A stretch of 33,570 nt of DNA from an uncultured Desulfovibrio sp. (GTDB lineage: Bacteria; Desulfobacterota; Desulfovibrionia; Desulfovibrionales; Desulfovibrionaceae), in assembly GCA_902783285.1 (NCBI GenBank), contig CACZQM010000049.1:1-33570 (forward strand). Reading direction: 5' to 3'. The notes beneath the pieces were generated by a model, which saw nothing but the letters and a program-made list of their open reading frames with translations, was not told the DNA's origin and did not search any database. The position numbers were made by a program, and so were the translations under genes. Positions 23,690-31,950 of the stretch are shown one piece after another; the stretch's first letter is position 1; each line of letters starts with the position of its first letter.

Positions 23690-25978
23690 CTAAAATTTGA
23701 TGTTGGGGATCTTGTCGCGGGATTCGCTCTTTTCGTCGCTGTTGCGGCTGTCATGCACGTATCCCTTTATCTGCTTGAGGGTGGAAAGGGGGATGCCCTC
23801 TCCGTCGTGCCTGCCGCAGCGCGGGCAGACGTCGCCGATGATGCCGGTGTAGCCGCATACGGGATCGCGGTCCACGGGATGGTTGATGGAGCCGTAGCCT
23901 ATGCCCATTTCCTTCATGGCGCGCACGATGTCCTCGAACGCCTGGAGGTTGTTCAGCGGATCGCCGTCCACCTCCACATAGCTGATATGCCCGCCGTTGG
24001 TGAAGGCGTGGTAGGGCGCTTCGAGCCTGATCTTGTTGTAGGCGCTGATGGGGAAGTACACCGGGATGTGGAAGGAGTTGGTGTAGTATTCGCGGTCGGT
24101 GATGCCGGGGATGACGCCGAAGAGCTTGCGGTCGTACTTGACGAAGCGTCCGGCCAGCCCCTCGGCCGGGGTGGCGATGACCGAGAAGTTCAGCCTGGTC
24201 TCTGCGCCCTTGGCATCGGCGCGCTCACGGATGGTGCGCACGATGCGCAGCCCCAGCTCCTGGGCTTTTTCGGACTCGCCATGATGGACGCCGATGAGCG
24301 CCTTGAGGCATTCCGCCAGCCCGATGAATCCCGTGGTCAGCGTCCCGTGCTTGAGCACCTCGCCCACGGTGTCATCCGGCGCGAGGCTGTCGGAATCCAG
24401 CCAGATGCCCTGGCCCATGAGGAAGGGGTAGTTGCGGCACAGCTTCTTGCTCTGGATCTCCAGCCTCTGGAGGAGCTGGGCGAACACAAGGTCGATCTTT
24501 TCGTTCAGCTCGGCAAAAAAGCCGTCCACGTCGCCGCGGTGGCGCAGGGCGATGCGCGGCAGGTTGATGGACGTGAAGGAAAGGTTGCCGCGGCCGAAGG
24601 TCGTTTCCCTTTCCGGATCGTGAAGGTTGGCTATGACGCGGGTGCGGCAGCCCATGTAGGCCACCTCGTGGTTGGGATCGCTCCCCCTGAGGTAGGGCTT
24701 GTTGAACGGGGCGTCCATGAAGGAAAAGTTGGGGAAGAGGCGCTTTGCCGACACCCTGCAGGCGAGCTTGAACAGGTCGTAGTTGGGATCGCCCGGGTTG
24801 TAGCTGTACCCCTCGCGCACCTTGAAGATGTGGATGGGGAAGATGGGGGTCTCGCCATTGCCGAGGCCGGCATCTTCGGCCAGCAGGATGTTCTTGATGA
24901 CCATGCGCCCTTCGGGGGAGGTGTCCGTCCCGTAGTTGATGGAGCTGAAGGGCACCTGCGCGCCGGCGCGGCTGTGCATGGTGTTGAGGTTGTGCACGAG
25001 CCCTTCCATGGCCTGGTAGCAGTCCTTGTCGGTCTTGGCGATGGCCTTCCGGATGATGCTGCGCGCCTTTTCCTCCTCGAATCGCTGGAGGAGCAGGGAA
25101 AGCGTGAAGTCCTGCCCGCCGTCATCAAGGATGGATGTGAAGGAATCGTATTTCCCGGAGGGGAAGGCACGGGCCCGCAGGGCGTCTTTCACGCCGGAGC
25201 GGAAATCTTCCGGGGCGTCGAGGATGTCGAGGATGAGGTCGATGTCCTTGATGAAGCTGCGGGCCACGGCCGGCGCCAGCCCGTAATCGAAATTGGGGAT
25301 GCTCTGCCCGCCGTGCTGGTCGTTCTGGTTGGACTGGATGGCGATGCTGGCGAGGGCGGCCGCGCACTGGATGCTGTTGGGCTCGCGCAGGAATCCGTGC
25401 CCGGTGTTGAAGCCGCCGGTGAACAGCTTTTTGATGTCTATCTGGCAGCAGGTCGTGGTGAGCGAGAGGAAATCCAGGTCGTGGATGTGGATGTCGCCTT
25501 CGTCATGCGCGCGGCTGAATTCCGGCTTGAGCAGGTAGTTCCGGTAGAAGGCCTTGGCGGCCTCGCTCCCGTAGCGCAGCATGGTGCCCATGGGCGTGTC
25601 GCCGTCGATGTTGGCGTTCTCGCGCTTGAGATCCATTTCCTTCGCTTCGTTGAAGGAGAGGTCCTTCAGCGTGTTCATCAGCTGGGTCTTCATCTCGCGC
25701 ACGCGGGTGCGCTCGTCGCGGTAGAGGATGTAGGCCTTGGCCGTGCGCGCGTGCCCGGCTTCTATGAGCACCTTTTCCACGACGTCCTGCACGTGCTCGA
25801 CGTCGGGGGTGTCGCCTTCTTCCGCTTCAAGGATGTCATACACGCGGTCCGCCAGCCGGCGGGCCAGGTTCCGGTCCGTGCCGCCCTGCGCCTTTGCGGC
25901 CTTGAAAATGGCGTCGTCGATCTTCGAGATGTCGAAGGGGACTATCCGGGAGTCCCTTTTTTTGATGAAGCGGATCAT
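23690..25978 (-). CDS. nrdD: class III anaerobic ribonucleoside-triphosphate reductase, large part
   Basis: A 762-residue protein that reduces ribonucleotides to deoxyribonucleotides without oxygen. Residues 1-90 are an ATP-cone allosteric domain (FIKKRDSRIVPFD). The ten-stranded barrel follows, with the active-site Cys segments TTTCCQIDI (Cys 177/178) and MGCRTRV (Cys 444). Near the C-terminus a zinc-ribbon-like region reads DPVCGYTG then CPRCG: three Cys instead of the usual four. The protein then ends with QIKGYVHD and a charged tail, where a normal NrdD would have the R-x-x-GY radical loop, so its own motif lacks the Arg. The good motif is in the small gene just downstream. The start has an AGAAGGGA site. 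Confidence 0.93.
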   Translation of the reverse strand: MIRFIKKRDSRIVPFDISKIDDAIFKAAKAQGGTDRNLARRLADRVYDILEAEEGDTPDVEHVQDVVEKVLIEAGHARTAKAYILYRDERTRVREMKTQLMNTLKDLSFNEAKEMDLKRENANIDGDTPMGTMLRYGSEAAKAFYRNYLLKPEFSRAHDEGDIHIHDLDFLSLTTTCCQIDIKKLFTGGFNTGHGFLREPNSIQCAAALASIAIQSNQNDQHGGQSIPNFDYGLAPAVARSFIKDIDLILDILDAPEDFRSGVKDALRARAFPSGKYDSFTSILDDGGQDFTLSLLLQRFEEEKARSIIRKAIAKTDKDCYQAMEGLVHNLNTMHSRAGAQVPFSSINYGTDTSPEGRMVIKNILLAEDAGLGNGETPIFPIHIFKVREGYSYNPGDPNYDLFKLACRVSAKRLFPNFSFMDAPFNKPYLRGSDPNHEVAYMGCRTRVIANLHDPERETTFGRGNLSFTSINLPRIALRHRGDVDGFFAELNEKIDLVFAQLLQRLEIQSKKLCRNYPFLMGQGIWLDSDSLAPDDTVGEVLKHGTLTTGFIGLAECLKALIGVHHGESEKAQELGLRIVRTIRERADAKGAETRLNFSVIATPAEGLAGRFVKYDRKLFGVIPGITDREYYTNSFHIPVYFPISAYNKIRLEAPYHAFTNGGHISYVEVDGDPLNNLQAFEDIVRAMKEMGIGYGSINHPVDRDPVCGYTGIIGDVCPRCGRHDGEGIPLSTLKQIKGYVHDSRNSDEKSESRDKIPNIKF

Positions 25979-26066: not shown

Positions 26067-26219
26067 GGGAATCAAGCCTAGCCAGTCGCAGGGGCGTGGT
26101 CAAGCCGCGCCTCCCGCAGGAAAAAGGCTTATGGAAAGCACGTACGATGAACTGTGAAGGAAAACAAGAGGAAAAGCCGGCGGAAAAATATTTTTATGCA
26201 CGTGATGCCGTTTTCGCGC

Positions 26220-26248
26220 TTGACAGCGGCAGGCTGCAAGGCTATAAA
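26220..26248 (+). promoter_or_regulatory. consensus sigma70 promoter of rimP-nusA-ylxR-infB
   Basis: TTGACA at 26220-26225 and TATAAA at 26243-26248 are separated by exactly 17 bases, with an A/T-rich stretch just upstream (26186-26198). Transcription should start near 26255, about 115 bases before rimP. This is the best promoter in the window. The remainder of the nrdD-rimP gap (25979-26219) holds the nrdD control region and no gene I can support. Confidence 0.8.
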
Positions 26249-26265
26249 TCCCACACGCAGTGGAA

Positions 26266-26295
26266 GCAAGGTCCATTCCGGATCTTGCTTTTTTT
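26266..26295 (+). terminator. first leader terminator (attenuator) before rimP
   Basis: GCAAGGTCC and GGATCTTGC form a 9-bp stem (one G-U pair) around the loop ATTCC, followed by seven T. It starts only about 10 bases after the predicted transcription start, so it would end a transcript of about 40 bases unless bypassed. Confidence 0.8.
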
Positions 26296-26326
26296 CATCC
26301 TGACGCCGCAACGGGCGGCATTCGCG

Positions 26327-26353
26327 GGGTGGCCTGGGGGCCTCCCTTTTTTT
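26327..26353 (+). terminator. second leader terminator (attenuator) before rimP
   Basis: GGG-T-GGCC and GGCC-T-CCC form a 7-bp stem with one T-T mismatch and a four-base loop, followed by seven T. It ends 16 bases before the rimP start codon. A smaller hairpin (GCCGC/GCGGC, 26305-26319) lies between the two terminators. Confidence 0.7.
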
Positions 26354-26369
26354 ATATGCAAGGTATCGC

Positions 26370-26990
26370 ATGGGCAAAGGATTGACACAGGAAAAGCTGG
26401 CCGGGATCGTCAGGGCCGCGGCGGAGCCGGTGGCGGCATCGCTCGGGCTTGCCCTTTGGGGCGTGGAATTCGTCGGCGGCGGGCGCACGGTGGTGCGCAT
26501 CTATGTGGACAGGGCCCCCGCTGCGGCGGAGGCATCTGCCGGAGACGATGGTCCGGGCGTTCAGGACGGCGTCTCCGTGGACCAGTGCGCGGAGCTTTCC
26601 CGCCTGGTCGGGCTCGCCCTCGATGTCGAGGATGTGATGCCCGGGGCGTGGGTGCTGGAGGTGTCTTCCCCCGGCTTTGAGCGCGTGTTCTTTTCCGCCT
26701 CGCAGATGATCCCCTACATCGGCAGGGACGTGGACGTCATGCTGGCGGATCCGCATCCGGACTTCCCGGGGCGCCGCCGCTTCAAGGGGCCGCTCCGCGC
26801 CGTGGAAGGGGATGCGTTCACCGTCGATGTTTTGCAGGCGCCCGTCCCCGGCGGGGAGCCCAGGCCCGTCCTGGCTGCGCTGCGCTGGGACATGGTCAAA
26901 AAGGCGCATCTTGTTTATGTATTTCCCGAAACCAGCCGCCCGGGCAGGCGTCCGGCTGCGGAGGGCAAAGGCGGAGGTAAGCAGCAATGA
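26370..26990 (+). CDS. rimP: RimP, ribosome maturation factor
   Basis: A 206-residue protein needed for 30S subunit maturation. It has the RimP N-domain (LGLALWGVEFVGGGRTVVRI, then VDQCAELSRLVGLALDVED and a VSSPGFERVF segment, the family hallmark) and a C-terminal SH3-like domain. A low-complexity insert (about residues 50-66) and a basic Gly-rich tail are extra. AAGG lies upstream of the ATG. It heads the conserved rimP-nusA-infB operon and overlaps nusA by four bases. Confidence 0.93.
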   Translation: MGKGLTQEKLAGIVRAAAEPVAASLGLALWGVEFVGGGRTVVRIYVDRAPAAAEASAGDDGPGVQDGVSVDQCAELSRLVGLALDVEDVMPGAWVLEVSSPGFERVFFSASQMIPYIGRDVDVMLADPHPDFPGRRRFKGPLRAVEGDAFTVDVLQAPVPGGEPRPVLAALRWDMVKKAHLVYVFPETSRPGRRPAAEGKGGGKQQ

Positions 26991-28243
26991 ATTTTGAGCT
27001 GAAAAAGGCCATCGACCAGATCAGCAAGGACAAGGGCCTTTCCCGTGAGATGCTGATCGGCATGCTCAAGGACGCCGTTCGTACGTCGGTAGCCCGCAAG
27101 TATGCGGAAAATCTGGATATAGAAGTTGAATATAACGAAGATACCGGCGATCTGAAGGTGTACCAGTACAAGCTCATCGTGGATGAGGTGGAAGATAAGT
27201 ACACGGAGATCTCCCTTGAGGATGCGCTCGAGCGGGACCCCACGGTGCAGCTGGGCGACGACATGGGCTTCGAACTCAAGATCGACGATCTGGGGCGCAT
27301 CGCGGCGCAGTCGGCCAAGCAGGTGATCATCCAGCGCATGCGCGACGCCGAGCAGGAGCAGGTGTACAACGAGTTCAAGGACCGCGTGGGCGAGGTCGTC
27401 AGCGGCAGCGTGCAGCGCCGCGACCGCGGCGGCTGGGTGATCAACCTTGGGCGCACCGAGGCCCTCATGCCGCGCGATGAGCAGATCCCCCGCGAACATT
27501 ACAAGCACAACGACCGCATCCAGGCCATCGTCATCGAGGTCAAGCGCGAAGGGCGCGGGCCGCAGATCATCGTGTCCCGTGCGCACCGCGACTACCTCAA
27601 GGCGCTGTTCCGCCGTGAAGTGCCCGAAGTCGATGACGGCAGCGTCGAGATCATGGGCGTGGCGAGGGATCCCGGGTCGCGCGCCAAGGTGGCCGTTTTT
27701 TCGCGCGACCGCGACATCGATCCCGTGGGGGCCTGCGTGGGCGTCCGCGGCTCGCGCATACAGAACATCGTGCAGGAGCTGCATGGCGAGCGCATCGACA
27801 TCGTGGTCTGGAACCCGGATATCGCCGTGTACGCCCGCAACGCGCTTTCGCCGGCCGTCGTCTCCCATATCAATGTGGATGAGGAGGCGAACCTGCTGGA
27901 AGTGACCGTGCCTGACGATCAGTTTGCCAACGCCGTAGGCAAAAAGGGACAGCATGTGCGCCTTGCCGCAAAGCTTCTGGGATGGAAGATCGACATCTTC
28001 GTGGAATCCCGCGCCAATGCCGGTTCATCTGCCGGGCGCGGGCTCGAACAGGTGGCCAGCGTCGCCGAGATCTCGGTGGACCGCCTCATGGGAGCCGGAT
28101 TCCATTCCCTGGAGGATCTGCGCGCTGCCGCGGACGATGAGCTTGCTCAGAAGCTCGACCTGCCTGAAGAAAGGATCGCAGACCTGAAGGCGGCGGTGAA
28201 CTTCCTCAGCCCCTCTTCCACGGAAGAAGGCGGGGAGGAGTGA
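26987..28243 (+). CDS. nusA: NusA, transcription termination/antitermination factor
   Basis: A 418-residue protein that binds RNA polymerase and RNA and modulates pausing, termination and antitermination. The N-terminal domain begins MNFELKKAIDQISKDKG. The S1 domain (VGEVVSGSVQRRDRGG) follows near residue 135, then KH1 and KH2 (DPVGACVGVRGSRIQNIV, and NAVGKKGQHVRLAAKL). A C-terminal helix-hairpin-helix stretch (SLEDLRAAADDELAQKL) ends the protein. The length fits the shorter NusA type without the two E. coli acidic repeats. The start overlaps rimP (ATGA). Given the tandem terminators before rimP, NusA may regulate its own operon. Confidence 0.97.
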   Translation: MNFELKKAIDQISKDKGLSREMLIGMLKDAVRTSVARKYAENLDIEVEYNEDTGDLKVYQYKLIVDEVEDKYTEISLEDALERDPTVQLGDDMGFELKIDDLGRIAAQSAKQVIIQRMRDAEQEQVYNEFKDRVGEVVSGSVQRRDRGGWVINLGRTEALMPRDEQIPREHYKHNDRIQAIVIEVKREGRGPQIIVSRAHRDYLKALFRREVPEVDDGSVEIMGVARDPGSRAKVAVFSRDRDIDPVGACVGVRGSRIQNIVQELHGERIDIVVWNPDIAVYARNALSPAVVSHINVDEEANLLEVTVPDDQFANAVGKKGQHVRLAAKLLGWKIDIFVESRANAGSSAGRGLEQVASVAEISVDRLMGAGFHSLEDLRAAADDELAQKLDLPEERIADLKAAVNFLSPSSTEEGGEE

Positions 28244-28245
28244 GC

Positions 28246-28474
28246 ATGTCCGCTGCCGCGCCCCTGCGCATGTGCGTGGTGTGCAGGAAGCGCTTTCCCA
28301 AGCCGTTCCTCCTGCGCCATGTCATGCGTCCCGGCACAGAAGGCAACGGGCTGGTGCCGGACGAAGCCGGCACCCTGCCGGGAAGGGGCTGGTATCTCTG
28401 CCATGACGAACAGTGCAGGTCGCGGTTTGCAAGGATGAAATTCAGGAGCAAAGCCCGCAACGGGAGCAAAGCAC

Positions 28475-28482
<8 letters not shown>
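28246..28482 (+). CDS. YlxR/RnpM family RNA-binding protein (DUF448)
   Basis: A 78-residue basic protein with the DUF448 signature [15 protein letters not shown] and GRGWYLCHD. YlxR sits between nusA and infB in many bacteria; in Bacillus and relatives it is reported to bind RNase P RNA and modulate its activity. ATG 28246 has a near-perfect ribosome binding site (GGGGAGGAG) across the nusA stop. Its stop lies inside the infB start region, so it is coupled on both sides. Confidence 0.9.
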
Positions 28483-31618
<3,136 letters not shown>

Positions 31619-31644
31619 TCTGAATAACAGACATGATGGAACAT

Positions 31645-31689
31645 AAAGCGCATCCCGGTGGCTGGTATTTTGCAGGGATGCGCTTTTTT
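31645..31689 (+). terminator. intrinsic terminator after infB
   Basis: AAAGCGCATCCC and GGGATGCGCTTT form a 12-bp stem with an 18-base loop, followed by further T. It closes the rimP-nusA-ylxR-infB operon, so the usual downstream partners rbfA, truB, rpsO and pnp are not part of this transcript. Confidence 0.85.
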
Positions 31690-31940
31690 GTGATCTGAAA
31701 ACCAGATATGTCCATATCCCCCTTGCCATTCCAAGAGGCCTGGCTGCCAGGCGGCCGGGCGCGGAGCCGGGGGCCAGGGCCGTGGGCCGGGGCGGCGGAT
31801 GCAGATCCTGCCGGCCCATGCGCGCAGGATCGGATCGCCGGGGCAGGGGCGGCAGGAAAGAGCGGCGTTGACGCCGCAGCCCCCTGCGTGCTACACAGCG
31901 CAAAATCAAGGCGCCTGCAGGCATGCCCCTGCAGGTGCGC
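31690..31940 (+). other. hairpin-rich gap upstream of khpA, no supported gene
   Basis: No gene can be supported here; the open frames are GC-driven and have no family features. Four inverted repeats are visible: GCCTGG/CCAGGC (31738-31752), GATCCTGC/GCAGGATC with a 12-base loop (31804-31831), GCAGGGG/CCCCTGC enclosing GCGGCG-TTGA-CGCCGC (31843-31887), and CCTGCAGG/CCTGCAGG (31914-31935) just before the khpA ribosome binding site. A weak promoter-like TTGACG-N18-TACACA (31868-31897) overlaps the third. This is where rpsP lies in many genomes; rpsP is not here. Confidence 0.5.
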
Positions 31941-31950
31941 GAGGATGGAA

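Follow-up and report, generated by a model that had tools for sequence, protein, structure and literature searches.

A candidate terminator/antiterminator leader upstream of rimP-nusA-infB in a Desulfovibrio clade, at the place held by tRNA-Gly(CCC) in relatives

The leader upstream of rimP, nusA and infB in an uncultured Desulfovibrio sp., a Mailhella-like gut bacterium (contig CACZQM010000049.1, of which the whole 33,570 nt stretch analysed is called the window) fits a new, lineage-wide variant of the known rimP-leader attenuator. With moderate confidence it is read as a cis-acting transcription attenuator in which an antiterminator helix (PX) competes with an intrinsic terminator (P3), NusA most likely tipping the balance. 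Comparison among relatives shows that the promoter, a first hairpin (P1), the motif CAUCCUG and P3 are conserved, that the predicted PX and P3 pairings exclude each other and that a tRNA gene is absent. An attenuator ahead of rimP-nusA had been proposed in an earlier sequence-only reading, and the proposal is strengthened by the conserved terminator and by CAUCCUG, which hardly varies and could base-pair with the P3 5′ arm.

The leader is located between the divergent nrdD (minus strand, 23690–25978) and rimP (26370–26990, plus strand; Pfam RimP_N, 1.9e-17). A likely ribosome-binding site, AAGG, is seen in the sequence at 26360–26363 of the plus strand, with the rimP ATG at 26370–26372. Downstream are nusA (26987–28243, plus strand; Pfam NusA_N, 4.5e-37, with S1 and KH_5), ylxR (28240–28482; Pfam), which lies between nusA and infB, and infB itself, encoding IF-2 (28475–31618, plus strand; identified from its ORF and the GTPase sequence in the translation). 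The region 3′ of infB (31620–31950) holds a strong hairpin with T6 (31645–31690), followed by a KH-like gene, rimM and trmD; rbfA is not next after infB, and rpsP was not seen ahead of the KH-like gene. This infB-KH-like-rimM-trmD order may reflect a rearrangement, or contigs joined during assembly.

Promoter and P1 hairpin

A sigma-70-type promoter at 26220–26248 of the plus strand comprises TTGACA (26220–26225), a 17-base spacer and TATAAA (26243–26248), matching 11 of 12 consensus positions. It is the top promoter match on both strands of the entire window, with 0.02 such matches expected from shuffling, and bears out the earlier statement that the window's best promoter precedes rimP-nusA. 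The leader comparison places the promoter at the same position in Mailhella relatives. A stock promoter scanner missed it because a final T is demanded in the -10 element, which here reads TATAAA. From the position of the promoter, transcription is expected to start at approximately 26254–26256. An A/T-rich block, AAAAATATTTTTATGC, is located at 26184–26199, about 20–25 bases or more upstream of the -35 element; relatives carry AAAAAAATTTTTTTGTGC in its place, and the block is possibly an UP element. Additionally, a promoter-like pair on the minus strand (TTGACC-17-TAGGCT, 26075–26105) faces nrdD, the anaerobic ribonucleotide reductase gene, and is visibly kept in the Mailhella relatives (CTTGACC...TAGGCT).

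P1 (26262–26292, plus strand; arms GGAAGCAAGGUCC and GGAUCUUGCUUUU) is supported by its fold, by shuffles and by covariation. The stem, 26262–26274 paired with 26280–26292, has a folding energy of −17.7 kcal/mol (z −4.87), and none of 200 shuffles is as stable. Among 14 Mailhella leaders, 6 of the 12 pairs have changed on both sides, giving 12 compensatory cells, and the covariation score is matched by 0 of 500 shuffles and by no slid version. Over the clade as a whole the sequence and size of P1 vary greatly.

P1 is followed by a T7 run (26289–26295, plus strand), a possible species-specific terminator tail judging by its sequence. Of these seven T, four belong to the full stem (GGAAGC.../...GCUUUU). 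Relatives mostly have an interrupted run (e.g. CTTTC) at this position, where it forms the lower strand of P1, and a run of at least five T occurs near the position in only 6 of 70 leaders. Thus, while the two hairpins reported earlier, each with seven T, are both present, they are not equivalent; the T of P1 are partly stem, P3 alone is kept, and the description of two equivalent tandem terminators is not upheld. Because the T7 run is partly P1 lower strand and hardly any relative has it, a terminator at P1 (26262–26295) would be limited at best to the species of the window. Two tandem functional terminators in that species, releasing an RNA of about 40 bases, would be compatible with the attenuator; by shape P1 with its T7 makes a good terminator, yet the loss of the T run in almost all relatives and the four paired T render this arrangement doubtful. 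The RNA of about 40 bases would need the terminator at P1 and would therefore, if it exists, be specific to the window's species. In most relatives an RNA ending at P3, longer than 40 bases, could be the sole possibility.

Terminator P3 and the predicted competing helix

The rimP-leader terminator P3, GGGG(U)GGCC-UGGG-GGCC(U)CCC-U7, occupies 26326–26353 of the plus strand, with its stem at 26326–26346 (−14.3 kcal/mol) and a T7 run at 26347–26353, and stops 16 bases short of the rimP ATG. It is conserved in every relative examined; within its arms, GGGGUGGCC and GGCCUCCC, the GGG and CCC are near-invariant. The folding energy of P3 does not exceed that of shuffles of its GC-rich stretch (z −0.9).

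Upstream of P3 lies CAUCCUG (26296–26302, plus strand), recognized by motif conservation and forming the 5′ strand of PX, the predicted antiterminator strand. Its partner is CGGGGUG (26325–26331, plus strand), which shares bases with the terminator's 5′ arm and was found in nascent folds and by RNAalifold. Between the two is hairpin P2, GCCGC-AACGG-GCGGC (26305–26319, plus strand; stem 26305–26309/26315–26319 in the fold); most relatives have a hairpin of other sequence in its place. PX and P3 are mutually exclusive, GGGGUG being common to both helices. The earlier suggestion that an extra hairpin here may form alternative structures is well supported as regards the middle region, but P2 is enclosed by the competing helix and does not do the competing.

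A motif of the CAUCC type, in most cases CAUCCUG, stands ahead of P2 in 70 of 75 tRNA-less leaders. Across the clade 5–7 bp can form between CAUCCUG and the 5′ arm of P3 (CGGGGUG, UAGGGUG and similar); the five core pairs are kept in 97–100 % of 32 distinct combinations, and the seven PX positions are 89 % paired in register versus 40–61 % when slid. Truncated at the P3 loop to represent nascent transcripts, the leaders form P1 and a PX helix around P2 in folds over most of the clade, and RNAalifold returns the PX helix from 40 divergent cores. A search with a model of the switch core gives a single strong copy in each genome, located at rimP, a result on which a trans-acting RNA family was rejected. 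The core is also present in 5 of 6 rumen MAGs named as Desulfovibrio or Desulfovibrionaceae.

Leaders L052–L055 and L057, and also L059, lack the CAUCC motif; folds of L053, L054, L057 and L059 still pair the P3 arm upstream. In L052–L055 and L057, which belong to an AT-rich genus (g48), another upstream strand, ACCUGUUAUAUAC, occupies this position and pairs with GUAUAUAGCCGGGU, which looks like an antiterminator that has been remodelled.

Covariation across relatives, proposed earlier as a check on the leader, is significant for P1 as given above, but not for PX, where three cells with both sides changed do not exceed shuffles, the helix being too invariant. The pairing probability of the G-rich arm (0.91 observed versus 0.70 with shuffled upstream sequence) is weak evidence taken alone. 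Because PX is too invariant and G-rich arms pair by chance, the case for the switch rests on an unpaired U that has a partner in PX only: U26330 is unpaired in P3 and paired with A26297 in PX. In 59 of 60 distinct tRNA-less leaders the base after the G run has no partner within P3 (in two of them it is C), versus an equivalent U that is paired in 36 of 40 terminators of tRNA-type leaders (typical stem GUGGaCC/GGuCCAC), although these are species counts of non-independent events, so that a naive Fisher test overstates the case. Two of the four tRNA-type exceptions with an unpaired U, L142 and L143, also carry CAUCCUG. In L074 the terminator stem is now GCCUG/CAGGC, and the unpaired U is still there. 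The association of unpaired U with CAUCCUG recurs in more than one lineage.

Two further candidates were rejected. A closing helix, P0, between a 5′ UCAG and CUGA of the P3 loop appears in several folds but was discarded as a general feature, with a score of 3.93 versus 3.92 for random end pairing among species. Leader-peptide attenuation was discarded since the leader frames differ and break between close relatives and none is conserved.

Proposed control and known rimP leaders

A terminator/antiterminator switch of this kind probably operates in cells. RNA polymerase would start near 26255 and make P1, then CAUCCUG, then P2. The emerging G-rich 5′ arm of P3 would pair first with CAUCCUG, forming PX as an antiterminator of seven pairs around P2. 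As GGCCUCCC arrives it would compete for the P3 5′ arm; P3 would form and an RNA of about 100 bases would be released. Were PX to persist, polymerase would continue into rimP-nusA-infB. NusA, which stimulates intrinsic termination, would most likely set the outcome, resulting in negative autoregulation.

That NusA drives the switch has about an even chance and fits work in two other bacteria. In Bacillus subtilis, NusA limits its own expression by stimulating termination in its leader, according to the account of Mondal 2016 in PMC12288461; the likeness to that account is in the proposed logic, NusA-stimulated termination upstream of nusA. In the Escherichia coli metY-rimP-nusA-infB leader, a tRNA gene is followed by terminators t1 and t2, and NusA represses its own operon (PMC6511841). 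The same PX/P3 structure could instead respond to RimP, IF-2, a cold-shock protein or a small ligand. Cold induces E. coli metY-rimP-nusA-infB, RimP was also named by Naville and Gautheret (PMC2965389), and the very variable size of P1 is what sensing domains may show; however, P1 is not conserved in sequence or size over the clade as a ligand-binding pocket would be, and the leader has no conserved ORF. A driver other than NusA is considered unlikely.

Among predicted bacterial transcription attenuators, the terminator of the rimP leader has been described as the most ubiquitous; its general form has been described without a larger conserved element or an antiterminator, and NusA has been suggested (Naville and Gautheret 2010, PMC2965389). 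The leader described here shares with this attenuator (Rfam RF01770) a terminator directly before rimP-nusA-infB with a G-rich 5′ arm, a C-rich 3′ arm and a U run. The GGGc(...)gCCC stem is found in P3 in altered form, the run of G being followed by an unpaired U in tRNA-less leaders, and P3 and the general rimP-leader terminator are probably one ancient terminator. In contrast to the general form, for which no antiterminator is reported (PMC2965389), the clade has a lineage-wide P1-CAUCCUG-P2 antiterminator candidate and the unpaired U. Gammaproteobacterial rimP leaders (PMC2965389) likewise have a terminator/antiterminator ahead of rimP, but their description includes a further terminator upstream, with CCCg..cGGG, whereas here no upstream terminator is conserved and the antiterminator pairs directly with the P3 arm. 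RF01770 gave no match in the window at the gathering score, and its hit in the window's own genome is a 17-bit chance match elsewhere; the model is narrow, since its cut-off was passed in only 1 of 14 control genomes. No known Rfam family matched the leader, and a literature search found no paper on the rimP leader in Desulfovibrio. For an attenuator whose general form lacks a visible antiterminator, a whole clade now offers a candidate, together with the terminator arm competed for and natural intermediates, which allows precise point mutations to be designed for testing how the supply of NusA and IF-2 is set in cells.

tRNA-Gly(CCC) at the same place in relatives

About 120 relatives were compared; leaders of rimP were gathered from the genus, family and order and searched for tRNAs. 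A tRNA-Gly(CCC) gene is located between promoter and terminator in many genera across the order, and upstream of rimP in 15 of 28 genomes sampled from other families of the phylum. Its position before rimP-nusA recurs in many of these families (L188, L190–L193, L195–L199, L202, L209, L210, L213 and L215). It was not found in leaders of the window's clade, where the structured leader stands instead, in what would be the ancestral place of the gene. In a RimP tree the tRNA-less leaders fall on one side of a weakly supported branch, except L102, which has a long branch. Most tRNA-less genomes carry tRNA-Gly(CCC) elsewhere, the window's own genome on contig C152. L111, from another genus (G133), retains a degraded tRNA-Gly where the gene first stood (score 37 versus a shuffled maximum of 32). 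The idea that the leader is by sequence a degenerate tRNA was rejected, as similarity does not exceed shuffles in the window or in the other switch-type leaders tested, and only L111 keeps a relic.

P3 corresponds in position and sequence to the terminator behind tRNA-Gly in relatives. This correspondence raises the alternative that P3 is a constitutive partial terminator kept from the lost tRNA gene, with fixed read-through and an upstream structure that only protects the RNA; most tRNA-type leaders are without CAUCCUG (two were found with it, L142 and L143), and in these rimP must still be fed. Such a terminator leaves the near-invariant CAUCCUG and the unpaired U of the tRNA-less clade unexplained, and is regarded as distinctly improbable. 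It is very unlikely that termination serves to produce a small RNA whose CAUCCUG would act as a seed for antisense pairing with start regions of the AGGAUG type; the layout is alike (strong promoter, hairpin, conserved C-rich stretch, terminator), but the partner of CAUCCUG is conserved in cis, and each genome has a single strong copy, always upstream of rimP.

With the PX/P3 attenuator as the preferred reading, a possible, still tentative history is that an ancient tRNA-Gly(CCC)-terminator-rimP-nusA arrangement became an RNA switch, by gain of CAUCCUG first (as in L142 and L143), then loss of the tRNA, and then establishment of a dedicated regulatory RNA for NusA and IF-2 supply. The E. coli metY leader shares with the Desulfovibrionales the order of tRNA gene, terminators and rimP-nusA-infB, but its tRNA is the initiator, versus tRNA-Gly(CCC) in the Desulfovibrionales and no tRNA in the window's clade. 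The leaders bear on why tRNA genes occupy this place (fMet in E. coli, Gly in Desulfobacterota), and a switch in the tRNA's former place would make an ancient, widespread and poorly understood control point testable. A literature search found no paper on tRNA-Gly beside rimP; its location before rimP parallels that of metY (fMet) in E. coli. In several tRNA-type leaders (L127, L136, L137 and L138) a GGAG immediately ahead of the terminator could pair with the CTCC that closes the tRNA at its 3′ end, which might be a further link between the tRNA and read-through.
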